From: Pseudomonadota bacterium
Lineage (GTDB): Bacteria > Pseudomonadota > Gammaproteobacteria > Steroidobacterales > JBCBZW01
Assembly: GCA_039193195.1 (NCBI GenBank)
Contig: JBCCWS010000012.1
Coordinates: 1-64,000, forward strand
DNA length: 64,000 bases
Direction of reading: 5' to 3'
This document shows positions 3,001 through 17,650 of this stretch, one piece after another; positions within the stretch are counted from its first letter, which is position 1, and each line of letters opens with the position of its first letter. The notes under the pieces were generated by a model. It was not told where the DNA came from. It saw nothing but the letters and a program-made list of their open reading frames with translations, and did no database searches. Position numbers and translations under genes: made by a program.

Positions 3001-3860
3001 ATCAGGTCAGCTTCGACCTGCGCCAGCGCCCGAGCACCGCCGAAGACACCAACACGGTGGAGGTGTATTGGAACGGCGAACTAGTGATGGAAGTCACCCC
3101 GGACTCCACGCAGTGGGAGACCGTGACCTTCGAGGTGACCGGCTCGGACGGCACTGACCAGCTGATGTTCATGGAGTCGAGCGAAGACTCGGACAGCTAC
3201 GGCGCCCACATCGACAATGTCTCCCTGGTGCAGCTAGAGGTGGAGCACGAGCATCCGGCCCAAGCATTCGTGTGGGAGGAGCAGGAGGGCGTGGCCGCGG
3301 GGGACAGCGTGGGCATCACCGCCGCGGCCTCCGACGGCGACAGCTCCGACGATGTCACCTACACTCTGACGGAAAACCCCAACGACGCCTTCGCTATCGA
3401 CGCGCAGACCGGTGAGGTCATCGTGGCCGACGTCGATGCCGCGCGCGAGCTCGGGGGCAGTTCGGTGGAGCTCCAGATTACCGCCACCTCGGCCGATGGG
3501 AGCAGCTCGTCGCAGGCCTTCGCGGTCGATGTGACGCGCGACAGTGACGCCGACGAGACCTTCACCGGTGGCGCGGGCGACGATACGGTGGAAGGTGCTG
3601 GCGGCGACGATCTTTACCAATTCTTCACCATGGACTCGGGCACCAACAGCTTCGACGGCGGCACCGGCTGGGACGCGGTGGAGCTGGAGGTACCTGCCGG
3701 TGGCGATGACACCCCGTGGACGATCGAGGTCGGCGGTGAGACCCTCGACTACGATCTAGATGCAGGCACGATCAATCTCGATGGCGACGCTAGCGGTACG
3801 ATCACCTACGAGGACGGCAGCCAGCTAGAGTTCGAGCGTTTGGACAACATCTTCTGGTAG
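3..3860 (+). CDS. Cadherin-repeat adhesin, C-terminal part (5' end outside window)
   Basis: The reading frame is open from the window edge, so the start lies upstream. Four cadherin-like repeats of about 103 residues follow each other up to about nt 1270; each carries a variant of AIDPTTGEVTVADP and DFESAQSMQIEVTATSQDGS. A beta-sandwich-like segment comes next (nt 1290-1825; EDF-type start, ends YGIDNIRV). A fifth repeat lies at 2165-2470. A DUF642/galactose-binding-like domain occupies about 2780-3235 (starts LLINGSFE, ends GAHIDNVSL). A sixth repeat lies at 3270-3540. The tail has RTX-like glycine/aspartate turns (GGAGDDTVEGAGGDDLYQF) at 3565-3625. Such architecture belongs to calcium-binding adhesins of the RTX type exported by type I secretion. 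That route is inferred, since no secretion genes lie in the window. No Cys-rich or membrane segment is visible. Confidence 0.85.
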   Translation, partial: AVGDGDGAANSIAESASIGDSVGVTAFANDADGSANGVAYSLSENPHEAFAIDPTTGEVTVANPASLDFESAQSMQIEVTATSQDGSSSAQTFDIAVTDSNEFDVSPVSDHDGAANSIAEDASVGDYVGVTAIADDADGSANGIEYSLSENPSGTFAIDPTTGEVTVADPAGLDFESAQSMQIEVTATSQDGSTSTQRFEIDIANVDEYDTSSVSDTDGAASTLSESAGNGTAVGITAFASDADGVNNEVTYSLSANPNDAFAIDANTGVVTVNDSTALDFESGNTMQIEVTASSADGSSSEQIFDIALTDQNEFHVSAVGDTDEAANFISENASAGDTVGVTAFASDGDSTDSSVSYSLSDDAGGAFAIDASTGEVTVADPSAIDYESNASLQIEVTATSEDGSATKQLFNIEVGNESEGLFTVSAETETFDDGASGWSNDATTGEGDSGFGAFLGRFGSADGAEATTKDFGVADDAEFVTVTFDFYEIDSWDAGYWGPDAGMESFLVDVNGERVLEESFTHESSSRPTDVDRQGGSDGVTYTIDSEESVQMGYSGWADQVHEITITIEAPEEGVMALAFGSTLHQSLRDESYGIDNIRVQSFDSDGNEMLVIEEGAAGGEVVGVLAATDSASGSVSYALADAESPFEIVDGKLQVKDGATVDYEAQSSYDLEIVATDDNGEVEAQTITVHVADRSGADDTADAGAAGAPGGGDPTSSVGAVTDSDGDGNSVSENAGTGVSVGIVARAVDGDIGDAVTYSLSENAGGAFAIDPDSGLVTVADSDAIDFESAQLMRIEVTATSQDGSSSSQTFDIAITDHDEFDLSPVLDSDDARNSIDVTHVASEVPQSVAIGIDVPASVVEGSELHFVVEGVPEGASLSAGHDQGDGTWLVSADEASDLTLTPPADGSGAELTVTPVEVSAGGDNLLINGSFESESVHNWTQVTELDGWETVGRTELWESGFSGTEASDGQVSIELDANRGGAEGIYQNVDVAEGEVHQVSFDLRQRPSTAEDTNTVEVYWNGELVMEVTPDSTQWETVTFEVTGSDGTDQLMFMESSEDSDSYGAHIDNVSLVQLEVEHEHPAQAFVWEEQEGVAAGDSVGITAAASDGDSSDDVTYTLTENPNDAFAIDAQTGEVIVADVDAARELGGSSVELQITATSADGSSSSQAFAVDVTRDSDADETFTGGAGDDTVEGAGGDDLYQFFTMDSGTNSFDGGTGWDAVELEVPAGGDDTPWTIEVGGETLDYDLDAGTINLDGDASGTITYEDGSQLEFERLDNIFW

Positions 3861-3909
3861 AGCGATCCCCGACCAATCACGGTCTCGCCACCGCCGCCGG
3901 ACCTAGGAA

Positions 3910-3926
3910 TGCCCCTGGCAGGGGCA
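3910..3926 (+). terminator. Short GC hairpin after the adhesin gene
   Basis: TGCCCC and GGGGCA pair around a TGGCA loop, 50 nt after the adhesin stop codon. No T-run follows, so it is at best a weak or factor-dependent terminator. Confidence 0.3.
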
Positions 3927-4016
3927 AACGGTCATCGCCCGTACTCCTTCGATCAATGACGTTCCCGGGATACCCTCGCGGTATCTCAGACCGACTTGCT
4001 AAAGGAGTAGCTCGCG

Positions 4017-6047
4017 ATGCTGCTGCAGTCCACGAACTCCAATCTCGCCCTCCTGCGCTGCGTGCGCCAAGCGTTAGCCCAAGGGGCGTCAATCCCCCGC
4101 GGCCGAACTCGACTCTGCGTGGTCGCCCTCGGCGCGCTCGGTGCAGCGAGCGGCGCCACCGCCGAGGACTTTGCACCGGTCATCGACCTAGGGGACCTGG
4201 CGGCCGGGGACGGTAGCGGCGGCTTCGTCCTGAACGGGGCAGAGGTCTACGACGAACTCGGGGTGGGCCTGGCCGGCCTTGGCGACCTCAACGGCGATGG
4301 CATCGACGACTTCATCGTCGCGACCGACAACGAGGACTTCGTCGCCAACCAGCCCAGTCAGGCCTACGTGGTATTCGGCTCCGACCAGGGCTTCCCCAGC
4401 GAGTTCAACCCCTCAGCGCTCGCCGACGGCGACGGCAGCACCGGCTTCGTGATCAACGGTATAAGTAACGTCGGGCGCTACGCCGCGGTTAACGCCGCAG
4501 GGGACATCAACGGCGACGGGCATGAGGACCTGGTCATCGGTTCGCCCGGCGAGCAGGCCGACGGTCTACCGCCCAACTCCGGCGTGGCCTACGTGGTGTT
4601 CGGTAACGAGAGCGGCTTTCCTCCCAGCGTCGATCTGCCGAGCCTCGACGGCAGCAACGGGTTCGCCATGCTCGGAATTGAGATCGGCGACTACGCGGGA
4701 GATGCGGTCAGCGGTGCGGGAGACATCAACGGTGATGGCGTGGATGACCTGGTTATCGGCGCCAGCGGCATCGACCAAGGCCTGATCGTCAATACCGGGG
4801 GAGCGTACGTCGTCTTCGGTAGCCGGCAAGGCTTCCCGGCGAACTTCCCCTTGGCGCTGCTCGGCAGCGGAGACGGCACCCGTGGCTTCGCCATCCGGGC
4901 GCCGGTCGACAGCTTCGGTAGCGTCGGCGTCGGCGTGGGAAGCGCGGGCGATGTCAACGACGATGGCGTGGACGACGTACTGATCGGCGGCCCCTTCTCG
5001 GGGAGCACCAACGGCGAGGCCTACCTCCTTTACGGGACGACCCAAGGCTTCACGCCAGTCGTCGATCTCGCGGACATCGCCGCCGGAGACGGCAGCGTTG
5101 GCACGGTCTTCCGCGGTGCGAACGGCGAGCGCGTCGGCGAGTTCCTCACCGAAGTCGGCGACTTCAACGGCGACAGCGTGAGCGACTTGATCATCTCCCA
5201 AGAAGACGGTGCCTACCTCTTACTCGGCAACCCGTCCGGGTTCCCCGCCGAGTTCGAACTCGAACGCCTCACCACCGGCGATGGCAGTGAGGGGGCCCTG
5301 CTTAGCGGGATGGGCGTGGATCGCGCGAACGCCGTGGGAGACGTCAATAACGACGGCCTTGCAGATGTCATCGTCAGTGACTCAGCGGCTGACGTGGGCG
5401 GTAACACCTTCGTCGGCCGCACCTACGTCGTGTTCGGCACGCGCCGAGCCTTTCCGGGTGTCTTCGCCCTGGATACGCTGGCCCAAGCCGAGGGCAGTGC
5501 CGGCTTCGTGCTCGAGGGCATCGATGGCGTGGACCGATCGGGCTACGCAATCGGCGGAGTCGGCGACATCAACGGTGATGGTACCGATGACCTCGCCATC
5601 GGCGCCTTCGCTGCCGATCCTGCAGGCCAAGCCAGCGCAGGGGAGGCCTACGTAGTCTACGGACGCCCATCGCAGGTGAGCTTCTCCGTCGAGGGCCTGG
5701 CCACCCTAGGTGCCCTTTGCCTAAACCTAACGGATCCTCAAACTGTATTCATCCCCTCGCCAGGCCAAGGCCTGTCCGCTGAGGTGTTCTGCGCCAGCAC
5801 GGCGCCCTTCTCCGCTGGCGAAGGTGATGAGCTGAGGCTGATTGCAATCGGCAATAACTTCCGTGCACAGCTGTCGGGCCGCGTCATTGGCGTGATAGAT
5901 GCCACCGCCAACTGCATCAACCTCACCAGTGGGCAGAACGTGATCGCACGCCTCGCAGAGGACGGTCGCTGGGACTGCGCGGCGGCAGGCTTGACGCTCG
6001 AGGACGGCGACCGAGTGAACGTGGTGCTCAGCGGTATGGCCCAATGA
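4017..6047 (+). CDS. Secreted FG-GAP / integrin-alpha-like repeat protein
   Basis: The 676-residue protein starts with a long basic n-region and a hydrophobic stretch ending GAASGATA, a likely signal peptide cleaved before EDFAPV. The body has about seven FG-GAP repeats. Each contains a calcium-loop motif such as GDLNGDGIDDF, GDINGDGHEDL or GDINGDGTDDL and a strand motif like AYVVFGS, which is the pattern of a beta-propeller. The last 130 residues are different and carry four cysteines in two CxNL/WDCA-like contexts; I cannot assign this part. An AAAGGAG ribosome binding site lies 10-16 nt before the ATG. The gene follows the adhesin in the same direction, so the two may act together at the cell surface. 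The binding partner is unknown. Confidence 0.85.
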   Translation: MLLQSTNSNLALLRCVRQALAQGASIPRGRTRLCVVALGALGAASGATAEDFAPVIDLGDLAAGDGSGGFVLNGAEVYDELGVGLAGLGDLNGDGIDDFIVATDNEDFVANQPSQAYVVFGSDQGFPSEFNPSALADGDGSTGFVINGISNVGRYAAVNAAGDINGDGHEDLVIGSPGEQADGLPPNSGVAYVVFGNESGFPPSVDLPSLDGSNGFAMLGIEIGDYAGDAVSGAGDINGDGVDDLVIGASGIDQGLIVNTGGAYVVFGSRQGFPANFPLALLGSGDGTRGFAIRAPVDSFGSVGVGVGSAGDVNDDGVDDVLIGGPFSGSTNGEAYLLYGTTQGFTPVVDLADIAAGDGSVGTVFRGANGERVGEFLTEVGDFNGDSVSDLIISQEDGAYLLLGNPSGFPAEFELERLTTGDGSEGALLSGMGVDRANAVGDVNNDGLADVIVSDSAADVGGNTFVGRTYVVFGTRRAFPGVFALDTLAQAEGSAGFVLEGIDGVDRSGYAIGGVGDINGDGTDDLAIGAFAADPAGQASAGEAYVVYGRPSQVSFSVEGLATLGALCLNLTDPQTVFIPSPGQGLSAEVFCASTAPFSAGEGDELRLIAIGNNFRAQLSGRVIGVIDATANCINLTSGQNVIARLAEDGRWDCAAAGLTLEDGDRVNVVLSGMAQ

Positions 6048-6066
6048 TCGACCGCGCCTGGCGTGG

Positions 6067-6990
6067 TTACCACACCTCGAGTTGGCGGAGTATGGCGAGG
6101 GAAATACCCAAGGTCATTGCCGCGTTCGCACTTAGGATAAGGAACACGCGGACCAGCATCGAGCGTCGACCAGGTGTGGCCCTGGGCGAGACGCACTGAG
6201 CGACGGCGAACATGGCAGGACCGGCGATCACGGCCCAGGTTGTGAGCGCGTTAGCGCCGAAGGGAGAGACGGCGATGAAGGCGGCGATGCCTATCCCCTG
6301 AAGCACGAGCGCGAGACGCTGCGCAGGGCCCTGCCCGAGGAGCACGGCTAGGGTTCGTTTTGCGCTATGGGCATCACTCGGTTGATCGGGTAGGGCCGTG
6401 GCGATAGCCCCTGCCAGCTGGAGGGGAAGCGTGGCGAGAAGCAGCGGCCAGGGAAACCCGCCCAGCGTGCCGGCCTGGGCGTAGTAGCCGAACGTCGGCA
6501 GTACCACGCCTAAGCCCACCATCTGCAGTAGTTCGCCGCCCCCCCGGTAAGACAGGCGCAGCGGTCGATAGCTGTAGGCCCAAAGCAACAAGACGGCGAG
6601 GCCTGCGAAAATTGGCGCTAGGACGCGCGAGTAAGCGCTGGCCAGCACGCCCGCAACCGACACCAGCAGCGCCGCGCACACGATGGCCGCGATCGCAAGA
6701 GCTCGGCCGGAGAGATGCCCGTCGACGAGCACTCGGCTACCGCCGGAGAAGGGCGTGGCCGTTCGGTTGTGGCGATCTGTTTCGACGTCGGCGACGTCGT
6801 TGGCGAAGACGATGTAGAGCTGATCGAGCAGCGCAAAGAGCAGCAACCACGCGAAGATGATCCAAGAGAACCGCGTAGGTGCCGGTAGCGCTAGCACCTG
6901 GCCGAAGATCAAGGAAGGAGCGATGTTACTCTGTGCCGCTGGGCGCGCGGCGCGCACCCACTCGCCTAGGCGCACGCGAGCACAAGCCAC
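6067..6990 (-). CDS. UbiA/MenA-type prenyltransferase, copy 1
   Basis: Integral-membrane aromatic prenyltransferase of 307 residues with about eight or nine hydrophobic helices. The first Asp-rich motif is NDVADVETD (residues 64-72) and the second is DQPSDAHSAKRT, the MenA-like form of the diphosphate/Mg site. These enzymes move an isoprenyl chain from a diphosphate donor to an aromatic or other acceptor in the inner membrane; the acceptor here is unknown. The start is a GTG, with another GTG five codons later. It is the last gene of a leftward three-gene unit, 21 bp after the unknown 234-residue protein. A second, diverged UbiA protein heads that unit, so this is not a simple menA or ubiA locus. 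Confidence 0.8.
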   Translation of the reverse strand: MACARVRLGEWVRAARPAAQSNIAPSLIFGQVLALPAPTRFSWIIFAWLLLFALLDQLYIVFANDVADVETDRHNRTATPFSGGSRVLVDGHLSGRALAIAAIVCAALLVSVAGVLASAYSRVLAPIFAGLAVLLLWAYSYRPLRLSYRGGGELLQMVGLGVVLPTFGYYAQAGTLGGFPWPLLLATLPLQLAGAIATALPDQPSDAHSAKRTLAVLLGQGPAQRLALVLQGIGIAAFIAVSPFGANALTTWAVIAGPAMFAVAQCVSPRATPGRRSMLVRVFLILSANAAMTLGISLAILRQLEVW

Positions 6991-7011
6991 GCGGCAGCGC
7001 GATGCCGCCGA

Positions 7012-7716
7012 TCACTTCGCAATGCCAAGCTCCGCAGCCAACTCCGCCCGGTGTTCAGCGAAGCGAGCGCCCCACTGCGCACGCCCGAGTCGATCCCATG
7101 TAGGGACGGGAATCTGCCCACGCTCGGCCAGCATCTCGTGTAGGAGGCGCTCGTCCTGGGGCTCCCGGGAAAATCCGAAGGGGTTACGTGGGCGCTCGTC
7201 GCGCAGGCGTCCGTACTTCGCATCATCCTGCGCGATCAGCTCTTGCAGCTCCTGGCGCCTGCGCTCCAGGTAGGTCAAAAAGCCCTCATCGAAAGGCCCG
7301 ATATGGGCCCGGCGTCCGGGTGCCTTAGCCACCCATTTTGCCCAATCGAATCCATAGGTGAAATCATGCACGTAGCGGAAGCGGATCACCGAGTGCATTC
7401 CGAAGCCGTCTATCAGCGCGACGAGGCGATCGCCCATTGCCTCCGTGGCATCGACACTCGCGCGATCAGCGAGCGCCTGCACGATGAGGTCGAGGTCCCA
7501 AAACACATTTTCGGGAAAGTGCATGGCGATGGCGCGCACCACTCGCTCCGTCTGCCGATACAAGGCGACGGCGTGGGCAGCCTCGAGACCCAAGGTCTGC
7601 CACAGCACCGCAAAGGACGTGGGGTGTGAGCGCCCCGGGCAGAGCGACACCCGCTCGCCTACTTCTTCATCTAGCCACGCATCGAGCGCGCCTCCATCGG
7701 TTGCCATCGCCGTCAT
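7012..7716 (-). CDS. Unknown 234-residue soluble protein between two UbiA genes
   Basis: I do not recognise this family. The protein has no signal peptide and no membrane helix. It is rich in Trp, Arg, Glu and Asp and probably helical, with an aromatic block around HFPENVFWDLDLIV and another around FRYVHDFTYGFDWAKW. The C-terminal third is charged (YLERRRQELQELI). Its ATG overlaps the TGA of the upstream prenyltransferase as ATGA, which suggests translational coupling. The next prenyltransferase follows after 21 bp. Tight linkage to both membrane enzymes suggests a partner or a tailoring enzyme of the same pathway; this is inference from position only. Confidence 0.7.
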   Translation of the reverse strand: MTAMATDGGALDAWLDEEVGERVSLCPGRSHPTSFAVLWQTLGLEAAHAVALYRQTERVVRAIAMHFPENVFWDLDLIVQALADRASVDATEAMGDRLVALIDGFGMHSVIRFRYVHDFTYGFDWAKWVAKAPGRRAHIGPFDEGFLTYLERRRQELQELIAQDDAKYGRLRDERPRNPFGFSREPQDERLLHEMLAERGQIPVPTWDRLGRAQWGARFAEHRAELAAELGIAK

Positions 7717-8654
7717 CTCAGCTCAGCTAGTGCCGCGAGTATCGCGGCCATGATCGTCGCGCTCCACCAGATCGCGCGGTGAAGCTCTAGCTTATACCGA
7801 CCCTGCTCGCGAAACGCATCAGTGACCGCACCTCGGGTCCGGGAGAGCAAGCGGGGCACGAAAGCGAACACCACTGCTGCCCCGAACGCCGTTACCGCCC
7901 AGGGCACGCGCTGCGGCATCCACCACGGTGAGCAAAGCCAACCGATCGCGCCCACCGCTAGCAGGGCTTCCACAAGCCGCCTCGTGGCTTGATTCCCCAC
8001 GGTGCTCGCCACGGTGCGCTTCCCGCCCCGGCGATCACTGCGCTCATCTGAGAGCCCGCTCGCGAGAGCACTCGCAAGGGAAAGCACGATGAACGGGCCA
8101 AGCAGCAGATAGGTCGAGCTCCAGAGCTCCCCCGCCTGCGCGTAGGCATTCATCCATGGCAGCACGGCGCCAACGCCGAGGGCCTCGAGCACCTCACCTC
8201 CGCCTCGATAGTTCAGGCGCACGGGGGGCAAGGTGTACGCCCAGAAGATCGCAAGCGCCGTGCCGCCTGCGAGGCCAAGGCCCGGGCGTGCCAGCCACCC
8301 TTCGAAGACAAAGCCTACGACAAGAGCACACCCCCCTGCGGCGACGCCTGCGATGAGCAAGGCACGACCCGGCAAAATGCGGTCGGGAATGGTCTTCGCC
8401 GAGCAGCCGTCGGGGAACATTTCGCGCTTGATGCGATCGACCGCTGCATCGCCCCAGTCATTCAAAAAGACGATGTACAGGAGATCAGCGATGACGAACA
8501 GCAGACCGAAGCAGAGCGCCGCGGCGCTCACGCCTCCTCCTACGTAGGCACCGAGCCCCTGACCGAACGCCATGGGCACTAGGAGCTTCGGCCAGCTCTG
8601 CGGTTTGGCCGCGTAGACCCAGCGGGACCCTGGGCTCAAGAATTGCGTCGTCAC
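7713..8654 (-). CDS. UbiA/MenA-type prenyltransferase, copy 2
   Basis: This 313-residue multi-helix membrane protein has NDWGDAAVD at residues 65-73 and a second site DERSDRRGGKRT, the two Asp-rich motifs of the UbiA family. KRT after the second motif is typical of MenA-like members. Compared with copy 1 it has an extra loop after the first motif (about DGCSAKTIPD). The frame stays open upstream for another 124 codons, but that extension is Arg-rich and unlike the family. I chose the GTG at 8654, preceded by GGAAG at ten-base spacing and directly before the usual N-terminal WVYAAKPQSWPK segment. It overlaps the next gene by four bases. The substrate is unknown. Confidence 0.78.
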   Translation of the reverse strand: MTTQFLSPGSRWVYAAKPQSWPKLLVPMAFGQGLGAYVGGGVSAAALCFGLLFVIADLLYIVFLNDWGDAAVDRIKREMFPDGCSAKTIPDRILPGRALLIAGVAAGGCALVVGFVFEGWLARPGLGLAGGTALAIFWAYTLPPVRLNYRGGGEVLEALGVGAVLPWMNAYAQAGELWSSTYLLLGPFIVLSLASALASGLSDERSDRRGGKRTVASTVGNQATRRLVEALLAVGAIGWLCSPWWMPQRVPWAVTAFGAAVVFAFVPRLLSRTRGAVTDAFREQGRYKLELHRAIWWSATIMAAILAALAELR

Positions 8655-9280
8655 GACATTCGATCTTCCAACGGGTGGGCGCCGGAGACCTGGGGCTACC
8701 GCCACTCGAGGCCGATCCTGCCTGCGCCGTCGATTGGACCATACCCGCAGGCGAGGTCTCCACTCGGCCCCTTCGACCGACCCCATCGCCACTGCGTTGA
8801 CGTAAGACTCGAGCACTGCCAAAGCGTCACCGATGACCCGCAATAGCTCAGCAGCTTTCACGATCAGCCCGCTGATCGCCCAGACGGGTGCCGTCCGGGC
8901 GCAGGAAAGGAGTGAGCCCGCACGCTCCTGCGAGACCCTCCGGCAACACCCATGGGGTCTCGCAGACGACGATCTTCTACGCAGCGCGTCCCCCCAATGG
9001 AGCCACTGCCTGCCGATGACCAGCATCGCCTTACGTGATGATGGCTACTTCAGCCCTACGTCGCCCCCATGGGGCTCGGACACCTCAAGCCGAGGGTCCG
9101 ATCGGCCGCTAACCGCACAACTACCCTTCGTCTCGCGTCTTCCATTGCCCGAAGTGATCGGGGACGACTTGGCGCGACAGGCCGACCCACAGCGATCGAC
9201 GCGGCAACCGAGCGAACTGGATAGCAGACTGCGCTCGGCGCCCTGCTAAGCTGTGGCCCGCGCTTCGAAAGCCCCCAGTC
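8655..9280. other. 626-bp divergent intergenic region
   Basis: This space separates the leftward prenyltransferase unit from the rightward reductase-exporter unit and must hold both promoters. Frames through it are open on both strands, but their translations are Arg/Ser/Pro-rich and look like high-GC chance frames. The clearest element is a perfect palindrome at 8861-8878. CCCATGGG occurs near 8948 and again near 9067. No convincing sigma-70 promoter was found. Confidence 0.5.
8861..8878. promoter_or_regulatory. Perfect 8+8 palindrome, possible operator
   Basis: CGATCAGC and GCTGATCG are exact inverted repeats separated by CC. The site lies about 210 bp upstream of the leftward operon start and 400 bp upstream of the reductase gene, in the only space where both transcription units can be controlled. 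A binding protein is not identified. Confidence 0.35.
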
Positions 9281-10327
9281 ATGTCAAAGTTCAAATCCAC
9301 TCTCCACCGCCGCGTCACCCTGACCAACGGCACTGAGTTCGACGTAGCTCCTGGCCAAACCCTGCTGCAGGCTGGACTGCAGGCAGGGCTCGACTGGCCG
9401 AACGGCTGCCGCGTCGGCCTGTGCGGCAGCTGCCGCTGCCGCGTGACGCGTGGAACGGTCCGAGCCCTCACGAGCTTCTCTGGCGTGCTCGATGCACAGC
9501 AGCAGAGTCAAGGTCATGTTCTCGCATGCCGCAGCGAACTCGAGAGCGATCTCACGGTGGACAGCGATCGCCTCTTCGCTGGACTAGGACCGGAAGATGC
9601 GGATATCGACGGCGTGATCTCCGGTGTAGAGCAGCTGACGCCACTTGTCTGCTTGGTAGAAGTCGCGCTCGATCACGCCCACGCGCGTGGCTACAGCGGC
9701 GGTCAGTACGCACGCCTCGAGGTGCCAAACGTCATCTCGCCCCGATGCTTCTCCTTCGCCAACGCCTGCCGCGGTGACGGCGGGCTGCGCTTCTTCGTAC
9801 GCTTGTTTCCCGGTGGGCAGTTGGGTGACTGGTTGAGCAGCGCCAATCGCATTGGGTCCGCCGTCCGAGTGAGCCGACCATTCGGCCATTTCGTCATGCG
9901 CAACACCCATCGCCCCGCACTCTACTTCGCGGGCGGCACGGGGTTGGCCCCGGTGCTGGCGATGCTTGAAGAGCTCGCGAGCCGGCCAGCTGCCGAGCAG
10001 CCGCCCGTGCGCGTGGCGTACGCCGCACGTGATCAGCAGCACCTGTTTCACCGACGCTATCTGGATCCGATCGTCGACCGATGGGCGGCGGGTACGCGCT
10101 TTGATTTCGTCAATGTGCTATCGCGCGAGCCGCGTCCGAGCAGTTGGCGTGGGCTGCGCGGGCACTTCTTTGATCACCTGCCTCTGCTTACGGCTGGCTT
10201 CGAGCAGGCTGATGCTTACCTGTGCGGCCCCCCGGGTCTGGTCGACGCCACTCAGCTCTTTCTGATCAAGGCCGGTTTTGCGCCTGAACGAATTTCCGCG
10301 GATCGCTTCCTGCCGTCTTTCACCTAG
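9281..10327 (+). CDS. 2Fe-2S ferredoxin / FAD-NAD(P)H reductase fusion
   Basis: A 348-residue oxidoreductase. The N-terminal plant-type ferredoxin domain has its cluster cysteines at C43, C48, C51 and C83 (CRVGLCGSC, then LACRS). A ferredoxin-reductase module follows, with an FAD-domain GGQYARLEVP and a relaxed RCFSFANA in place of RxYS. The NAD(P) domain has FAGGTGLAP at about 217-225 and YLCGPPGLVDAT near the C-terminus. Such proteins pass electrons from NAD(P)H to an oxygenase, hydroxylase or dehydratase (VanB, phenol hydroxylase reductase and CDP-6-deoxyglucoseen reductase types). No oxygenase is adjacent, so the acceptor is unknown. It opens the rightward arm of the divergent locus and could serve a redox step on the prenylated product; that is inference. 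Confidence 0.85.
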   Translation: MSKFKSTLHRRVTLTNGTEFDVAPGQTLLQAGLQAGLDWPNGCRVGLCGSCRCRVTRGTVRALTSFSGVLDAQQQSQGHVLACRSELESDLTVDSDRLFAGLGPEDADIDGVISGVEQLTPLVCLVEVALDHAHARGYSGGQYARLEVPNVISPRCFSFANACRGDGGLRFFVRLFPGGQLGDWLSSANRIGSAVRVSRPFGHFVMRNTHRPALYFAGGTGLAPVLAMLEELASRPAAEQPPVRVAYAARDQQHLFHRRYLDPIVDRWAAGTRFDFVNVLSREPRPSSWRGLRGHFFDHLPLLTAGFEQADAYLCGPPGLVDATQLFLIKAGFAPERISADRFLPSFT

Positions 10328-10498
10328 CCACCCAACGCCCCCGTAGATCACTTTCCCGCAGTCCCTCGTACCTCTCCTAAGGGCGCCTGCGCCCCCCTGG
10401 CTCCACGACTTGCTTAGGGAAGAGATGATGACTAAGACGGGATCAATGCTCGAGCGCCGGTCAGTCGGGACGGAGACTAGAGCGTGGGAGGCGACCAG

Positions 10499-13400
10499 AT
10501 GACGTCGCAACGGCTGCACCAGCGACGCTCCCTATTCGAAACCTTAACTTCACGACCCCGATGGGTGCTCCTGCTCAGCGCGGGCTGGTTGGTGTGGTCT
10601 GGCGTTGGCCTCACGCACCTGCACAAGGACGTCTCCCTAGAGGCCTTCGTGCCGCCAGATCATCCCTCACTCCTCGCCGACCGCGAGATCGATGCCACCT
10701 TCGCGGTGGGCGACCCCATGGCGCTGGCGGTGGAGGTGGAGCAGGGGCGATCCGTCTTCGAACCACAGGTGCTGGCACTGGTTGAGCGCCTGACACGTGC
10801 TGTCGAAGGGCTAGACAACGTAGTGGCGAACCGCGTGGTGTCTCTCGCGACCGAGTCGAGCATCAGCGGCACTGCACAGGCCCTACACGTCGACCGGTAC
10901 CTACTGGCCACGCCCATCAACCAGCTCAGCGCCACCGACAGCCGCGGGCGCTGGCGGCAGATGCCCCCGCACCAAGGCACGCTGGTGTCTTGGAATGAGC
11001 GCGGCGCGATGGTGCTGTTCGAGCTGATGGACGATGACCTTGCCACGCAGACCTACGCGAATCTGCAGGAGTTGATCGAGGACTACGCGACCGACGGAAT
11101 CCGCTTCCACATCGCCGGCCCGGCGGCGGTGAGCGCAATCCTCAGCGACCGCATCGATAAGGATGCGAAGGCGATGCAGCCACTGGTGTTTCTGGTCGTC
11201 CTCGGCTTCCTCTACCTGGCCTTCCGCCGCGTGCAGGCGCTGATAGCACCGCTGGTGGTAATCGCAGGCGCGACCGTGGGCGCGATGGGCGTGATGGCTT
11301 GGAATGGGGTGCCGTACTTCGCGATCACCAACGCTCTACCCGTGATCCTGGTGGCGATAGCAGTTGCCGATGCGATCCACATCCTGTCGCACTTCTACGC
11401 CCTACGTGCGAGCGCGTCACCGCAACGCACGCGCGAGCTGGTGGTCGAGACCATGAACGTCATGGCCAAGCCCATTACCCTCACAACGATCACGACGATG
11501 GCCGGCTTTGCAGGCATCGCGCTCACGTCCATCATGCCGCCGATCACATACTTTGCCTGGTATGCAGCCCTAGGCGTGTTCCTAGCCTGGGTGTTCTCCA
11601 TGCTCACGCTGCCGAACCTCCTAGTTGTGCTGCGGCCACTGCCGAGCGCGGTGTTCCGCGGCGAGCCCTCGTCAGGCGGACTCGGTAACTGGTGGCTGCG
11701 GGTTAGCCAGAGCGCTGCTCGACGGCCTAAAGCAACGCTGCTCCTGGTGCTTATGGCCATCACGATCGGTGGATGGCAAGCGAGCAGCCTGCGCTTTGAC
11801 CGCTCGCAGGTAGAGAACTTCGCCCCGGATGATCCCGTGCGTATCGCCGATGAATTCATCAACGAGACCTTTGCGGGCACCGCGTTCCTCGACGTGCTCG
11901 TCGAGGCGAGCGAGACCGGCGGCTTGCTGAGAACGAGCGCCATGGAGCGTATCGCACAGCTGCAGCGGTACATCGACGCGCAGGCGCACGTACGGATCAG
12001 CGTGTCGATCGTCGACTATCTATCGTTGCTTCACCAGGCGCTGCTGGTGGACGTGGGCGGCACCGGCGGGCGGGCCCTCCAGCCCCGTTCCCTGCCCGAC
12101 GAGGAAGATGCCATCGCGCAGTACCTGCTGGTCTACGAGGCATCAGGGGATCCGACCGACTTCGAAGAGGAGATCGACAGTACGGGCACGCGAGCCCTAA
12201 TCCGTATTGCCCTGGACGCCTCCCACTACTCGCGTACCCGCGATGCCGTGGAGTCCATCGATCGCTACCTACGAGACCACTTCAACGACGCCCAGCTCTC
12301 CGCACGACTCGGCGGAAACGTCAACCTCACCTACCACTGGATGCATCGTCTTCAGGCGACCCACGTGGTGGGCGTTCTGCTATCTCTGCTGCTGGTGACG
12401 CTAACGGCGGTGCTGCTCCTACGCTCTGTCGGCATCGGAGTGCTCGCCGTCGCGCCCGTGAGCCTTACGATCCTCCTGCTTTACGCGGTGATGGCGAGCC
12501 TGCAGGTGTACCTGGAGCCTGCGACCAGCATGTTCGCCGCCATCTCCGTCGGGCTGGGGGTGGACTTCGCGATTCATCTGATCGTGCGCCTTCGCGCAGC
12601 AGGCAAGCGCCATGGGCAAGCGCTCGACCTGGTGCTGCGCGAAGCGGTGCCCCCGACCGCTCGCGCCTGTTTTTTCAATGCGGCCGCGCTGGGCGTCGGG
12701 TTCTGCGTACTGACGGCCAGCGATCTGCTTACCTTGCAGCGTTTCGGAGCGATGATCGCGCTGGCAGCCTTCGCGAGCTTCGTGCTCGCGCTGATCGTCA
12801 TTCCCGCCTGCTACGGCCTTCTGCGCCTTCGATCGCCGATCCCGGGCGCTAGGCGCCCAAGCCGTGCAATCGCCAGCAGTCTCATCGCCCTGCTCCTCGG
12901 CGGACTCTGCATCACCCCCGCTCCATCAGCACGGGCGATGGTCGAGGTGGACGGCGACTGGGTGGCCCAGCAGGTGGCCGCGCGGCCGGAGGGGCTCGCC
13001 GTGCGGCGAGTCATCGATATGACGCTCACGGACCGGCGCGGCGCCACCAAGCAACGACAGGCCGTCGTACTCAAGCGAACCCCAGCTGACGGACAGCGCG
13101 AAACGCGCATCACCTACAGCGCTCCTCGCGCTGTGCGCCACACCTCTTTCCTGAGTCACGATCGTGGATCGTCCGGTGAAGATCTGCGTTGGCTGTATCT
13201 GCCTGCCACACGAAAGGTCAGACGCATTCCGGCGAATGAACGCGGCGACCACTTTCTCGGCACCGACTTCTCTTACGAAGACGTGCAGAGCGAACTGAAG
13301 TTCGATCTCGCCGACTACCGCTTCGAGTTGCTCGAGTCCCCCGGGCCGGGTCGCTACCTATTGGCGGGGGTCGCGGTGAACGCCCAGATCGCTCGTCAAC

Positions 13401-13687
13401 TGGGCTACGGACGCATCGAAGCGCTCATCGACGGCGAGAGCTGGCTGCCCATTAGTATCGAGTTCTTCGACCCCGAGCTGCGCCCATTAAAGATCATCGA
13501 GGTACGTCGCCAAGCGCGCATCGACGGCATTTGGACAGCACTCGAGATTCACGCGCAGCACCTTCAGCAGCAACACAGCACCCTATTCACCTATCGCGAC
13601 GTGACCTATCCGGAACAACTGGACGAGGGCTACTTCGACGCTCGGCGCCTGCTCCGCCACCTGTCGCAGGCACAGCTCGATCCATGA
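10499..13687 (+). CDS. RND/MMPL-type exporter fused to a LolA-like domain
   Basis: The first about 790 residues are an RND/MMPL transporter: an N-terminal membrane helix, a periplasmic loop, a helix bundle (from FLVVLGFLYLAF), a second loop, and a second bundle containing GLGVDFAIHLIVRLR. A further helix follows (ASSLIALLLGGLCITPAPS). The last about 250 residues match the LolA-like outer-membrane lipoprotein-sorting fold, with the core LRWLYLPATRKVRRI and SFLSHDR segments. Usually these two parts are separate neighbouring genes. I chose the ATG at 10499 because GGGAGG sits seven bases upstream; a GTG at 10484 is in frame but lies upstream of that site. The fusion suggests that the pump hands a lipid directly to a periplasmic carrier domain; the cargo is not known. 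The gene overlaps the next one by four bases. Confidence 0.85.
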   Translation: MTSQRLHQRRSLFETLTSRPRWVLLLSAGWLVWSGVGLTHLHKDVSLEAFVPPDHPSLLADREIDATFAVGDPMALAVEVEQGRSVFEPQVLALVERLTRAVEGLDNVVANRVVSLATESSISGTAQALHVDRYLLATPINQLSATDSRGRWRQMPPHQGTLVSWNERGAMVLFELMDDDLATQTYANLQELIEDYATDGIRFHIAGPAAVSAILSDRIDKDAKAMQPLVFLVVLGFLYLAFRRVQALIAPLVVIAGATVGAMGVMAWNGVPYFAITNALPVILVAIAVADAIHILSHFYALRASASPQRTRELVVETMNVMAKPITLTTITTMAGFAGIALTSIMPPITYFAWYAALGVFLAWVFSMLTLPNLLVVLRPLPSAVFRGEPSSGGLGNWWLRVSQSAARRPKATLLLVLMAITIGGWQASSLRFDRSQVENFAPDDPVRIADEFINETFAGTAFLDVLVEASETGGLLRTSAMERIAQLQRYIDAQAHVRISVSIVDYLSLLHQALLVDVGGTGGRALQPRSLPDEEDAIAQYLLVYEASGDPTDFEEEIDSTGTRALIRIALDASHYSRTRDAVESIDRYLRDHFNDAQLSARLGGNVNLTYHWMHRLQATHVVGVLLSLLLVTLTAVLLLRSVGIGVLAVAPVSLTILLLYAVMASLQVYLEPATSMFAAISVGLGVDFAIHLIVRLRAAGKRHGQALDLVLREAVPPTARACFFNAAALGVGFCVLTASDLLTLQRFGAMIALAAFASFVLALIVIPACYGLLRLRSPIPGARRPSRAIASSLIALLLGGLCITPAPSARAMVEVDGDWVAQQVAARPEGLAVRRVIDMTLTDRRGATKQRQAVVLKRTPADGQRETRITYSAPRAVRHTSFLSHDRGSSGEDLRWLYLPATRKVRRIPANERGDHFLGTDFSYEDVQSELKFDLADYRFELLESPGPGRYLLAGVAVNAQIARQLGYGRIEALIDGESWLPISIEFFDPELRPLKIIEVRRQARIDGIWTALEIHAQHLQQQHSTLFTYRDVTYPEQLDEGYFDARRLLRHLSQAQLDP

Positions 13688-15039
13688 GCCCAAAGGGAGC
13701 ACGAACAACCCTCGTCGTCTTGTCGCTGGCGGCTTCGGCGAGCGCAACTGCCGCCACGCTGACGATCGAGGAGACATCGCTGCAGGCCCGCGTGGCCTAC
13801 CAGCACGCGAGCGCTCGAGCGCAGAGTATCTCCACCCTAAGTACGCTGGAAGGCGGGTTCACCGTACGCTGGCGTGAGTCTCTAAGCTTGCGGGCTAGCG
13901 CATGGGTGGAGAGCGACGCCAGCGGCAGGCTGCGCCCGCGCGACTTCGACGAGCGCCGCTTCGATCACGCGAGCAACCTGAATCGTGCGATCGACCTTGG
14001 CTCCCACGCCAACCTCGAGTTGCGAGACCTGTACCTACAATGGCAGGGAGAGCGCACGCAGGTGCGGCTCGGCAAGCAGCAGGTGGTGTGGGGCAAGCTC
14101 GATGGGCTTCGCGTACTGGATCAGGTGCACCCTGCCGATTTCCACCGCTTTCTGCTGCTGGATGACGCCCGCCGCCGCCTGCCCCAGTGGGGAGTACACA
14201 GCACGCACTACCTACCGCGTTGGAGCTTCGAGGCGTTGGCCCTGGTGGACAACACGGTGCACGACATCGCCGACCCGGGAGGCTGGTTCGCCTTTCGCGC
14301 CCCGCGCCTGCGCTACGGGTTCTCGGGCGATTCGGTAACGGAGAGCGTGGGAGTCCGCTCCGATCTCCCAGACCCATGGTCCGATCTCACGCTTGGCGCG
14401 CGCGCCTCGCGCCAAGTTGGAGTCCATGAGATTGCCTTCGTCGCCAAGCGCGGTCACGACTTCGAGGGGATCGGCGAACTGCGTGCAGCGCCAGCGGACG
14501 CGGCGACTGCATCTTCCTTACTGCTCGTGCGACAGTTTCCGCGCCAAGACCTCCTGGGTGCGTCCTGGGAGAGCAGCCTGGGTCGCGTGGTGATGCGCGC
14601 AGAGCTGGCCTTTCAGCCCCAACGGCGCTTCAACGTGCGCGACACGCAGCAGCAGGATCTGAGCACCACGCGAGCGAATCAATGGCTGGTGGGTCTCGCC
14701 CTCGATGCCGACCTGCCCTTCGGCATCCTGGCCAGCACCCAATTGCTGCTCGATCGCGTGGTGAGCGCATCGCCCGGGCTGGTGCGGCCGCAGGAGGATT
14801 GGATCGCCACCCTCAGCCTCCGGCGCAAGCTGCGGTACGACGCTCTGCAGGTGCAGCTTCGCTACCTAGGCGACCTGAGGGTGGGGGACGGCATGATCGA
14901 CCTCGGCCTGCGCTACGCGATTAACGACCGTATCGCCCTGGCCCTCAGACATGCACAGTTCCACGGCGACGCGACCGGTCTTTTCGGCCAGTTCGCCGAC
15001 CGTGACTTGGTCGAACTTCGGGTCGAGGCTAGCCTGTAG
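13684..15039 (+). CDS. DUF1302-like outer-membrane beta-barrel protein
   Basis: The 451-residue protein has a signal peptide (VVLSLAASASATAATL). Alternating amphipathic strands follow to the C-terminus, which ends ...VELRVEASL, as in outer-membrane barrels. The segment RLGKQQVVWGKLDGLRVLDQ, with HPADFHRFLLLDD after it, resembles the DUF1302 signature, whose members occur with RND/MMPL pumps and LolA-like proteins. The ATG overlaps the TGA of the exporter gene as ATGA, so translation is probably coupled. It likely forms the outer-membrane end of the same transport path. The in-frame extension upstream of the ATG is inside the exporter gene and was rejected. Confidence 0.8.
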   Translation: MSPKGARTTLVVLSLAASASATAATLTIEETSLQARVAYQHASARAQSISTLSTLEGGFTVRWRESLSLRASAWVESDASGRLRPRDFDERRFDHASNLNRAIDLGSHANLELRDLYLQWQGERTQVRLGKQQVVWGKLDGLRVLDQVHPADFHRFLLLDDARRRLPQWGVHSTHYLPRWSFEALALVDNTVHDIADPGGWFAFRAPRLRYGFSGDSVTESVGVRSDLPDPWSDLTLGARASRQVGVHEIAFVAKRGHDFEGIGELRAAPADAATASSLLLVRQFPRQDLLGASWESSLGRVVMRAELAFQPQRRFNVRDTQQQDLSTTRANQWLVGLALDADLPFGILASTQLLLDRVVSASPGLVRPQEDWIATLSLRRKLRYDALQVQLRYLGDLRVGDGMIDLGLRYAINDRIALALRHAQFHGDATGLFGQFADRDLVELRVEASL

Positions 15040-15082
15040 GCGCACGCGAGGACGTTGCTGTGAGCTCACTCTAGCGCGGCTT

Positions 15083-15130
15083 CCTGCGCGCGCGGGGGAC
15101 TAGCGAGTTGCGCTCGCTAGGCCGCGCAGG
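15083..15130 (+). repeat. Nested hairpin after the exporter operon
   Basis: Outer arms CCTGCGCG/CGCGCAGG enclose inner arms CTAGCGAG/CTCGCTAG around a TTGCG loop. All arms are perfect 8-mers. It starts 43 bp after the barrel-protein stop. No T-run follows, so it may be a transcript-stabilising structure, a factor-dependent terminator, or a short relative of the CTAG-ended elements elsewhere in the window. Confidence 0.5.
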
Positions 15131-15297
15131 CGACTGGGGGAGCTAATCGGCCGATCCTCAAGACGCGTTTGACCTGGAAAAAACTATAAAAATCAGTGGC
15201 CTTTTTAGCACAGCGGATCTTTTACACGGAGACCTTTACTACGCACCCAGGCACGGTAAACTCATCGCAGTACGATAAGAACCATGGACGGACCATC

Positions 15298-15960
15298 GTG
15301 AAACTCAACGCTCTCGGCGCCGCCGCAGCCGCACTACTGCTCCCGCTGTCGGGATTCGCAGTTACCACCGGCTTTTACCAAACCGAGGTCGGGCTAGGCC
15401 TGGATATTCCCGACAACACTCCGGCTGGGATCACTAGCACCATCGAAGCGATTGCGGGTGATACGCTGCTCGGGTTTGTGCCGGAATCGGGCGGGCTCAT
15501 CGAAGACGTGGAGGTGGTGATCAGTCTCGACCACACCTTCATCGGCGACCTGATCATCACCCTGACCTCGCCCGAAGGCACCGAGATTACCCTTCTGGAC
15601 CGCCCCTCCGGTGATGCTGCCTTCGACAGTTCAAATCTCGATGGCCAGTCCTTTATCTATTTCACCGACCGCTCGATCGTTGACGCGGACACCGCTGGCG
15701 CGGGCTGCGGTACCGATGACATCGTCGGCTTGGACTGCCAGGGAATCTTCGCTCCCGTAGACGTCACAACGGCCCTCGCCGGCGAAAATCTTCTCGGCGT
15801 GTGGACCCTGACGGTCTCGGACAACGCCCTCATCGACACGGGCGACCTAAACGGTTGGTACATCGAGATCGACTTCACGCCCGTTCCACTGCCCGCCAGT
15901 GCTTGGATGCTCATCGCAGCACTGGGCGGCTTGGGCATGATGCGCCGTCGCCGCGGGTAG
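15298..15960 (+). CDS. P-domain protein with VPLPA-CTERM sorting signal
   Basis: The 220-residue protein begins with a signal peptide (NALGAAAAALLLPLSGFA). It contains a proprotein-convertase P domain: LDHTFIGDLIITLTSPEG at about residues 78-95, then GVWTLTVSDNA and LNGWYIEIDF. The C-terminus is VPLPASAW, a hydrophobic helix and MMRRRRG, the tripartite PEP-CTERM-like signal of the VPLPA type that an exosortase recognises and removes. The exosortase itself is not in the window. I chose the GTG at 15298 because it places the signal peptide at the N-terminus; a weak GGACGG precedes it, and the longer open frame adds an uncharacteristic leader. P domains usually accompany proteases, but no catalytic domain is present here. 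It is monocistronic, with its own terminator. Confidence 0.8.
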   Translation: MKLNALGAAAAALLLPLSGFAVTTGFYQTEVGLGLDIPDNTPAGITSTIEAIAGDTLLGFVPESGGLIEDVEVVISLDHTFIGDLIITLTSPEGTEITLLDRPSGDAAFDSSNLDGQSFIYFTDRSIVDADTAGAGCGTDDIVGLDCQGIFAPVDVTTALAGENLLGVWTLTVSDNALIDTGDLNGWYIEIDFTPVPLPASAWMLIAALGGLGMMRRRRG

Positions 15961-16421
15961 TTCTCTCGCGCCGGGAGCCGCCAGCCTCCTATCGAATGCC
16001 TAGCACGAAGGCCGCCGTCGAGCGGCCTTTTTGCTTTTTGCCGAATAAATAGAAGACATGCGCATCGCATGCGGGTGTACCGGCTTCGACCCGCCTTAGA
16101 ATCGCTGCCAACCGACACCCCTGCACACGAGCTCGGCCGGAGCGTGCGGACGCTAGCGTCCGTGCGTAACACTCCGTCAGCACTCTGTTGCTAGCTCATT
16201 TGCCTTCCGAGCTTCCTTGAAATGCGAAGGCAGCCACACCCAAGGCACTAAACAGGAAGAACTCGGGACCGAAGAGCTCTCGGCACTTTTGGGCCTTCTC
16301 AGGAGGGAAATCGGTGCTCGAGCTTGACAGATGCCGCGCTAGCTCTGGGAAAGCGTGCATGCGGACGGATCTCGCTCACCCAGAACCGCCGGGTATTCAC
16401 AACGCAACGGGGACCTAGGAA
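15961..16421. other. Intergenic boundary before the accessory cassette
   Basis: After the terminator at 16008-16032, base composition becomes more AT-rich towards 16200 and stays so through the two-gene cassette. A TTGACA hexamer lies near 16326, but no good -10 follows at 16-18 bp. No gene, att-like repeat or integrase remnant was recognised. Confidence 0.4.
16008..16032 (+). terminator. Rho-independent terminator of the VPLPA-CTERM gene
   Basis: AAGGCCGC pairs with GCGGCCTT across a six-base loop, followed by an uninterrupted T-run, 48 bp after the stop codon. It also insulates the downstream cassette from read-through. Confidence 0.9.
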
Positions 16422-17633
16422 GTGCAGGTAAAGCTTGAGGAAGATTCACTGGCCGAACTCGCCTACCAGTCGAGGCTTGGGCTGTTTGCGAGTGTCATGA
16501 CGGACGGGCCGGAACTACTTAAAGACGCGCTTCACTGGGCGCTAGCACAACCCGATGACCCGCCTGAGCCCGAAGAAGGTATGCAGAAGCGGCGGACGGA
16601 CTATCGCATACTCACGACCTTTGGCCAGTCGTTAAAGAAGTGTGGTGACGAACTCTTTGGCACCGTGGCCAAGCCCCGGAGCGAAGAGAACTCACCTGAG
16701 ATCAAGATTCTTCTGCTAGACCCTCTCTGCGAACTGTCTCGCCTCAGGGAGGGTGAGCTAAAGGACAACAATCTGGACATCAAGCTCGGATTGATGCAGA
16801 TCTTCAGTGCCCTTCGAGATAACAAGCACGTCGACCACAGCCTAATACCCGCAGATCTCGGTGACGGTGACGTCAACGCCTACGCGCGAACGATCCAAGA
16901 TCTTGGCAAAGATGTAAATGTTTTTCTTCGCTTTTATCAGACCATGCCGAGTGGCATCAGCTACTTCTTCAAGGATCTACTCATCAAAGGGTTTACTCCC
17001 TTCAGAGTTGCTTCCAAGCAGTCGGTATGGGACATCATCGTCAATCACTTAGATCGCGATGATGACCGCTACGATCACTTCTCACGCGAATTTGATCGAA
17101 TGTGGACCGATGGATCCTACACGGATCCCGGGGGCGCCCCGCCGAGCGGGTACAACATCTTCATTTCGCATACTTTCCCAAGAGGAGAAGACCAACACCT
17201 GCGGGAGGCTGGAATGATCCGACTGCAGGAACTGAGGTCGCTCATAGAGAGCTGGATGCCTGCACCCGAGTCTGATCGTGCCCGCGCGACATCTGTGGTC
17301 TACCTCAGCGCCGATGACTATCGGAACCAGGACTGGACCCTTCGACTACCAAGTGAAATGCGGCAAGCCTCTATCCAAATCATGATACTAGAGGAGGGTC
17401 AAGACCAGCTATCGGAGTACCAAGCGATGGAGCTAGGACACTTCTGGGTGGGTAACAAGGCCATCATTCCTCTTCAAATAGGCAGCAGGTCGATCGACAG
17501 CGAGGTGCTTCGAGCGAAATCCCCTGTTCACTGGAGCGGACATACATCGGATCAGACTGCGATGAGAGCCCTGCGCGAGAGAATCTTCGAAGCGCTGAAG
17601 AAGACTCCCGGGGCAACAGTATTCGATAACTGA
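16422..17633 (+). CDS. TIR-like domain protein with N-terminal PLD-like/sensor region
   Basis: This 403-residue protein has two parts. Residues about 93-230 contain EIKILLLDPLCELSRLR and later VNVFLRFYQTMPSGI and FSREFDRMWTDG. This layout resembles the non-catalytic phospholipase-D-like effector-binding regions of some signalling proteins; that is a tentative reading. Residues about 243-395 look like a TIR domain: GYNIFISH (first strand), VVYLSADDYRNQDW, IQIMILEE, then LSEYQAMELGHFW with IIPLQIG. E337 would be the NADase glutamate if the alignment holds. The start is GTG, with GGGGA eight bases upstream. The next gene follows after 17 bp. Base composition is well below the rest of the window (26 of 60 G+C at 16921-16980, hand count), which suggests transfer. 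A defence role is possible but unproven. Confidence 0.65.
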   Translation: MQVKLEEDSLAELAYQSRLGLFASVMTDGPELLKDALHWALAQPDDPPEPEEGMQKRRTDYRILTTFGQSLKKCGDELFGTVAKPRSEENSPEIKILLLDPLCELSRLREGELKDNNLDIKLGLMQIFSALRDNKHVDHSLIPADLGDGDVNAYARTIQDLGKDVNVFLRFYQTMPSGISYFFKDLLIKGFTPFRVASKQSVWDIIVNHLDRDDDRYDHFSREFDRMWTDGSYTDPGGAPPSGYNIFISHTFPRGEDQHLREAGMIRLQELRSLIESWMPAPESDRARATSVVYLSADDYRNQDWTLRLPSEMRQASIQIMILEEGQDQLSEYQAMELGHFWVGNKAIIPLQIGSRSIDSEVLRAKSPVHWSGHTSDQTAMRALRERIFEALKKTPGATVFDN

Positions 17634-17650
17634 AGAGTTTCGGGAGCTCA

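Follow-up and report, generated by a model that had tools for sequence, protein, structure and literature searches.

An apparently undescribed protein family paired with a distinct UbiA clade, back to back with a candidate lipophile exporter in a Steroidobacterales bacterium

Introduction

Contig JBCCWS010000012.1 (assembly GCA_039193195.1) of a Pseudomonadota bacterium from the order Steroidobacterales carries a divergent locus in which a small protein of an apparently undescribed family is encoded between two UbiA-superfamily prenyltransferases. Positions 1–64,000 of this contig were analysed and are referred to here as the window. The leftward arm of the locus encodes UbiA-A, the 234-residue protein (p234) and UbiA-B; the rightward arm encodes a reductase, an RND pump with a fused LolA-like domain and a DUF1302-type barrel (Table 1). 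We tentatively favour, at somewhat less than even confidence, the reading that UbiA-A and p234 are the core of an undescribed prenyl-transfer module that stands back to back with a lipophile exporter of known kind. Gene content and gene order, conservation between species, the clades and motifs of the proteins, and the separability of the two arms in other genomes were observed. All six genes share 74–86% amino-acid identity with those of a sister species (genome G008, the only other genome of the family available for comparison), with ratios of nonsynonymous to synonymous substitution rates (dN/dS) of 0.09–0.20, so they are real, functional genes. An earlier sequence-only reading had joined both arms in one pathway that makes a prenylated aromatic or lipid and moves it to the outer membrane; its gene identities agree with the Pfam scan of the six genes made here.

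The p234 family and its distribution

Judged by sequence comparison, p234 appears to represent an undescribed family that is tied to a distinct UbiA clade, yet stands alone in Nostocales-type cyanobacteria. No Pfam family was found when 18 homologues were scanned singly at E values up to 1 (best 0.06), and p234 has no match in NCBIfam at E 0.1 or, by sequence, in the PDB at E 10. No description of the family or of a UbiA-A/p234/UbiA-B module was found in the searched literature, where subscription papers are poorly covered. Homologues were found neither in viral contigs nor in plasmids, and a role as a PADLOC defence protein was set aside (no match at E 0.01). The best match of the p234 profile search, the RsbU N-domain (E 0.011), was taken as chance.

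None of 26 p234 homologues has a 19-residue window at or above 1.6 on the Kyte-Doolittle scale, so the protein looks soluble. Its AlphaFold2 model, built from 16 sequences, is all-helical, with a predicted local distance difference test score (pLDDT) of 84 and a predicted template modelling score (pTM) of 0.84. Foldseek returned no match to this model at E 0.001, and VIA-align none above Z 6.4; the latter were mostly designed helical repeats, which were taken, with SidK (Z up to 6.4), as common helical arrangements. The lack of a fold match does not in itself establish a new fold. The alignment of 26 rows contains 31 invariant residues, including D74, D76, H117, D118, W125, W128, R136, R177, N178, R184, E189, W207 and R223, and this polar and aromatic pattern would suit an active or ligand site better than a scaffold.

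Among sampled genomes, the family is rare and patchy. It occurs in two of 196 genomes of the order (the host and G008), in one of 398 genomes drawn from the phylum (the host), in one of 194 genomes of another carrier's order (that carrier itself), in 16 of 292 Cyanobacteriota and in two of 296 Bacteroidota (centre genome counted in the last two samples). A scan of GTDB r220 contigs, which used exact short peptide patterns only and hence under-counts relatives, found at least 16 p234 loci, in 10 Nostocales cyanobacteria, Persicobacter, a “Thalassobius” contig and four Gammaproteobacteria. The contig filed as “uncultured Thalassobius” (L019) looks, by reading only, like Bacteroidota, with PorP/SprF-like and PKD-repeat-like proteins, and is perhaps mis-binned.

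Outside ordinary cyanobacteria, p234 has a constant partner: UbiA-A lies immediately upstream on the same strand in all 10 carriers found, and UbiA-B follows in seven of them. This triad, in fixed order and on one strand, was found in the host, G008, the Gammaproteobacteria loci L021, L023, L025 and L026, and G827 (L107) from the Cyanobacteriota sample; the three loci without an adjacent UbiA-B are those of Persicobacter (L017), L019 and G1371 (L106). A UbiA-A profile scored 411–535 bits in each of the eight such carriers searched, against at most 41 bits in the 10 cyanobacterial carriers searched. In the p234 tree, the seven triad rows form one clade (support 98/95) and 16 cyanobacterial rows another (96/96), so that p234 phylogeny appears to parallel operon content. 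These patterns suggest that one module may have passed from phylum to phylum, gaining or losing UbiA-B a single time.

Genes near the other p234 loci offered no clear partner. UPF0047 and DUF34/NIF3 genes each lie near cyanobacterial p234 in 14 of 19 loci (L011–L016, L018, L020, L022, L024 and L108–L116), some of the latter with 4-base overlaps; weighed as p234 partners, they seem to be general genes whose neighbourhoods are conserved. Other neighbours were judged to be there by chance: acetate-kinase-like and channel-like genes close to the Persicobacter locus, identified by reading, and an Rv3169-family gene near L025 and L026 (the L025 copy was scanned).

The UbiA pair and its possible products

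Both UbiA proteins pass the PF01040 cut-off of 34.2 bits (UbiA-A 72.2, UbiA-B 81.1). In a tree of 35 UbiA proteins, the 10 UbiA-A rows and the seven UbiA-B rows each form one clade (100/99 and 98/97); the two clades are joined (92/84), then meet one very long-branched protein from the host genome and stand beside MenA. UbiA-A and UbiA-B are not inside the MenA clade of this tree, and their deep placing is unsure, as are the deep joins generally, with only three MenA rows and long branches. The Asp-rich motifs of UbiA enzymes are NDxxDxxxD and DxxxD, and both are present in all 10 UbiA-A and all seven UbiA-B rows. The UbiA loop between motif 1 and the next helix may shape substrate choice, and it is longer in UbiA-A and UbiA-B than in most other rows of the alignment. 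Of 18 other UbiA rows, 17 keep an Arg in this loop, as do all seven UbiA-B rows (within SGGSRVLxxGxL); at this position all 10 UbiA-A rows have Lys, within MFPxxxSxKTxPDxIL, a stretch conserved only in clade A. The UbiA-A model has the fold of the Archaeoglobus UbiA homologue (4tq3/4tq4; E about 1e-4) and of UBIAD1 (8djk), with template modelling scores of 0.61–0.67 overall and 0.63–0.67 for 4tq3/4tq4.

The MenA branch is the nearest known relative, sharing PF01040, both Asp-rich motifs and tree position. The UbiA pair differs in scoring far below MenA cut-offs and forming its own clades, and UbiA-A differs further in the loop Lys within its clade motif and in the p234 gene that always adjoins it in the loci seen. 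These relationships bear on the idea that the pair serves a menaquinone-like or other quinone pathway, in which p234 would be an accessory factor; we consider this unlikely. The best NCBIfam match of both proteins is 1,4-dihydroxy-2-naphthoate prenyltransferase, at 59.5 bits for UbiA-A and 52.1 bits for UbiA-B, well short of the MenA equivalog cut-off of 264. The host genome has six UbiA hits without a clear MenA, one of which, on C23, matches no named family, and this leaves some room for a quinone role in the host. A proper 4-hydroxybenzoate octaprenyltransferase is nevertheless encoded elsewhere in this genome (TIGR01474, 320 bits, over cut-off). The C23 protein, the sixth and a very divergent UbiA-like protein (C23:57796-58503, L006), scores 29.5 bits, below cut-off, and has no NCBIfam match at 1e-20. 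In Persicobacter, the module is followed by a class I methyltransferase that matches UbiE/MenG below threshold (47 bits, cut-off 158), but the best family of this protein is sarcosine/dimethylglycine N-methyltransferase, with UbiE/MenG among many weaker matches. In addition to UbiA-A, Persicobacter encodes a proper MenA (358 bits, over cut-off). The sequence-only reading had allowed that the UbiA pair might always occur with quinone genes alone; no quinone gene was noticed beside the triads and dyads, whose neighbours were mostly read by eye rather than scanned.

Elongation of a carotenoid or other hydrocarbon, with UbiA-A and UbiA-B acting like lycopene elongases and p234 as a helper, is improbable. 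Lycopene elongases belong to the UbiA family, and two paralogues would fit attachment at the two ends of such a molecule. The host also has the bacteriochlorophyll synthase BchG (G000:C1:360384-361112, L003), over cut-off, as does G607 (L124). Neither UbiA protein has a specific NCBIfam match, though, and no carotenoid gene was noticed next to the module. Because BchG exceeds its cut-off, the host may make bacteriochlorophyll, and the label “non-photosynthetic” was dropped for the triad genomes.

The ebo cluster provides another comparison. There, too, a UbiA protein goes with a small protein of undescribed function, and the authors consider a prenylated carrier (PMC6282210; also PMC5133447); ebo is reported to be required for passage of the scytonemin monomer to the periplasm (PMC6282210). 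That the module here makes a similar carrier, which moves metabolites across the inner membrane, is improbable. EboA was sought in 14 p234-bearing genomes and in the sample of 292 Cyanobacteriota genomes. In that sample, p234 occurs in 16 genomes and EboA in 11, with both in eight against 0.6 expected (hypergeometric 2e-9, or 2e-8 without the centre genome, with phylogeny uncontrolled); many of these genomes are possibly close relatives, and common descent may explain the overlap. Both proteins are also present in Persicobacter and G601. EboA is, on the other hand, absent from all seven triad genomes, the host included, and from G1371, and in G593 p234 lies 2.6 Mb away from eboA. Homology between p234 and EboA was not detected (hhalign probability 0.7%), and on this profile comparison p234 was rejected as an EboA; it has no match to NF035938 at E 0.1 either. 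Neither UbiA protein matches the EboC model NF035940 at E 0.1 (positive control L120, 424 bits). Thus, likeness to ebo lies in a soluble undescribed protein with a UbiA-like enzyme and in overlapping cyanobacterial distributions; the difference lies in the lack of a detected relation between p234 and EboA, or between the UbiA pair and the EboC clade (EboA and EboC were compared), and in triad genomes without EboA. The co-occurrence of p234 and EboA is a lead, an association to test rather than a result.

Under the favoured reading of an undescribed prenyl-transfer module, we infer each catalytic step as follows, and the transport steps likewise in the next section. UbiA-A, in the inner membrane and with intact Asp-rich motifs, would move a prenyl group from a prenyl diphosphate to an acceptor, and this acceptor would differ from those of known UbiA enzymes. 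The soluble, helical p234, with its many invariant H, D, R and W residues, would, as an enzyme or a subunit, make the acceptor ready or pass it on. UbiA-B, the sister paralogue, would add a second prenyl chain or act on the product. A prenylated aromatic is a possible product of the left arm.

The export arm

The right arm resembles AmeABCD of Castellaniella defragrans, in which two periplasmic proteins, one from the LolA superfamily, accompany an HAE3 pump and a DUF1302 protein, and which helps that species to tolerate monoterpenes (PMC6394551). Both systems combine an HAE3-like pump with a DUF1302 barrel and a periplasmic part of the LolA superfamily, all encoded together. The best NCBIfam match of the pump is HAE3 (TIGR00921; 160.9 bits, E 3e-47, under its cut-off of 351.9), its LolA part matches the LolA-type lipoprotein-sorting structures 9tp6 and 3bk5, and the barrel passes the PF06980 (DUF1302) cut-off (35.6 bits, cut-off 23.2). 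The arm differs from AmeABCD in the fusion of its LolA part with the pump, in the family of that part (PF17131, with a DUF1329 match just under cut-off), and in having a reductase as the fourth gene. No AmeC-like gene matched among 10 proteins scanned at 4017–19132, and separate AmeB and AmeC were not found. The hopanoid transporter HpnN, an RND pump of the HAE3 branch, is comparable to the HAE3-like pump of the window; the latter differs in lying far under the HpnN cut-off (72.4 bits, cut-off 751.85), and HpnN is reported to operate without periplasmic or outer-membrane partners (PMC6394551). By analogy, the right arm appears to be an exporter of known kind that deviates in its fusion and in its fourth gene.

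At E 0.001, 25 of the order's 196 genomes gave a barrel match, and many of these matches were short. Twenty-three of these genomes lie outside the genus, and the eight strongest loci were fetched as stretches of 5–16 kb. The pump adjoins the barrel in all eight, with the LolA part as a separate gene in L085 and the barrel broken by a stop in L087. The export line proposed by the sequence-only reading is upheld by this pump–LolA–barrel module and by the described AmeABCD-like exporter (PMC6394551). The RND domain would lift a molecule out of the inner membrane; the fused LolA domain would shield it on its way through the periplasm, and at the outer membrane the DUF1302 barrel would receive it.

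The reductase shares the domain order (2Fe-2S, FAD and NAD(P)) of BenC, AntC and MmoC, and its nearest solved structure is 1krh. It differs in falling below the BenC equivalog cut-off (178.7 bits, cut-off 430) and in lacking an oxygenase in its operon; no oxygenase was found among the 10 proteins scanned at 4017–19132. The reductase would feed an oxygenase that is encoded elsewhere.

Gene starts and the gap between the arms

Two of the longest open reading frames (ORFs) probably extend beyond the true genes. UbiA-A most likely starts at GTG 8654, because the G008 ORF has at most 315 residues and begins at a matching GTG; the gap between the arms is therefore 8655–9280, or 626 bp. The barrel most likely starts at the ATG that gives a 4-base overlap with the pump rather than at 13531; in G008, the GTG that opens the barrel ORF begins on the final base of the pump gene. 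The coupled starts noted in the sequence-only reading hold: UbiA-A overlaps p234 by 4 bases, and the pump overlaps the barrel by 4.

The 626-bp length of what had been called a regulatory region also holds; a purely regulatory role does not, since the remnant of an eroded gene lies inside it. The corresponding gap in G008 is 1472 bp and contains an ORF of 287 residues (L009:13379-14242), which matches no Pfam family and, by reading, opens like a signal peptide. Window positions 8831–9063 align with the beginning of that gene and with a segment from its middle, at 70% and 79% DNA identity, and the remainder is missing from the window gap. The remnant ORF (8833–9249) begins MTRNSSAAFTIS, where the sister has MISNRSAAFTIS, and includes LPMTSIALRDDGYF, where the sister has LPMTSAALRDDGYF. 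By this comparison, part of the gap is a decayed gene. The gap may still carry promoters, but its length is no indicator of special regulation. No RNA element was found by Rfam at E 0.1 in the region 5900–15300.

Table 1. Features of the divergent locus, with the longest ORF and the result of the Pfam scan for each gene.
Feature	Position	Strand	Longest ORF	Pfam scan	Description
UbiA-B	6067–6990	-	6067–6990	PF01040	Intramembrane prenyltransferase, UbiA superfamily; loop SGGSRVLxxGxL; clade B 98/97
p234	7012–7716	-	7012–7716	none	234 residues, looks soluble, all-helical in model; undescribed family; motif HDFxYGF[DE]WA[KR]W
UbiA-A	7713–8654	-	7713–9026	PF01040	UbiA-superfamily prenyltransferase; loop MFPxxxSxKTxPDxIL; first gene of operon; clade A 100/99
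Eroded gene remnant	8831–9063	+			Intact 287-residue ORF in sister species G008; blastn/tblastn and alignment
Reductase	9281–10327	+	9281–10327	Fer2/FAD/NAD	BenC/MmoC-type NADH reductase: 2Fe-2S, FAD and NAD domains
Pump	10484–13687	+	10484–13687	MMPL (PF03176) + PF17131 LolA_like	HAE3-like RND; C-terminal LolA_like domain, residues ~824–1056
Barrel	13684–15039	+	13531–15039	DUF1302 (PF06980)	Outer-membrane-barrel-type protein; hydrophobic N-terminus

Linkage of the two arms

Both arms occur together in both genomes of the family (the host and G008), which is to say only in this genus. Elsewhere they are apart. No pump, barrel or reductase match was found beside any of eight other UbiA-A/p234 loci in fetched stretches of 10–21 kb, and none of the eight fetched pump–barrel loci contains the reductase, UbiA or p234 (in neither set was the rest of the genomes searched). 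The left and right arms are separable modules. The neighbourhood survey of p234 homologues suggested by the sequence-only reading thus upholds its linkage of the arms within the genus and contradicts it outside.

These results weaken the proposal of one pathway, in which a prenylated lipid or aromatic made by the left arm would reach the outer membrane through the right arm; we regard it as unlikely. The divergent arrangement is kept in both family genomes at 74–86% protein identity, and an AmeABCD-like pump has been implicated in the export of apolar terpenes (PMC6394551). The arms are apart in every other lineage examined, however, and the gap holds an eroded third gene, so a dedicated promoter region common to both arms is too simple a picture. 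A joint function of the arms within the genus is possible, and that the exporter carries the product of the left module is a guess from their placement in one genus.

Several observations weigh against the favoured reading itself, a UbiA-A/p234 module beside a lipophile exporter. Outside the genus, the eight UbiA-A/p234 loci and eight pump–barrel loci just described show no linkage of the arms, and no acceptor pathway is linked to the UbiA-A/p234 loci. All 24 other cyanobacterial p234 loci examined are without a nearby UbiA-A, UbiA-B or export-gene match (10 from the GTDB pattern scan, nine with ~10-kb flanks and five with 1.5-kb flanks), so the job of p234 cannot strictly need UbiA-A. Of the 15 ordinary cyanobacterial carriers in the 292-genome sample, 10 were seen with ~10-kb flanks, G593 (L011) among them, and five with 1.5-kb flanks. 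No fold match of p234 points to an enzyme (Foldseek, VIA-align). The extra loop length cannot be a UbiA-A speciality, as UbiA-B has it too; the Lys-for-Arg change is chemically mild, and the loop is among the lowest-confidence parts of the UbiA-A model (overall pLDDT 76).

Neighbouring genes

Long repeat proteins end beside UbiA-B on the opposite strand in both species (window 3–6047, with FG-GAP at 4017–6047; L009:3064-10398); the sister's protein has 2444 residues and cadherin domains. Directly after the barrel, window 15196–15960 encodes a P-domain protein with a PEP-CTERM match just below cut-off. The adjacent ORFs at 16422–17633 and 17651–19135 (403 and 494 residues) have no Pfam match.

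Outlook

UbiA enzymes decide the membrane anchoring of molecules such as quinones, chlorophyll, haem O and archaeal lipids. A bolder view, which we consider decidedly unlikely, is that p234 founds a new enzyme family that gives a novel acceptor to a dedicated UbiA clade and so yields a new class of prenylated membrane compounds; the unit would travel between phyla and could carry a second prenyltransferase, and p234 in Nostocales-type cyanobacteria would serve another UbiA-dependent system such as ebo. Together, p234 and its distinct UbiA clade point to a prenylated product or carrier, perhaps an undescribed one. A unit of two or three genes is small enough for expression and assay, and p234 may help to explain the recurrence of small helical proteins, such as EboA, beside UbiA enzymes.

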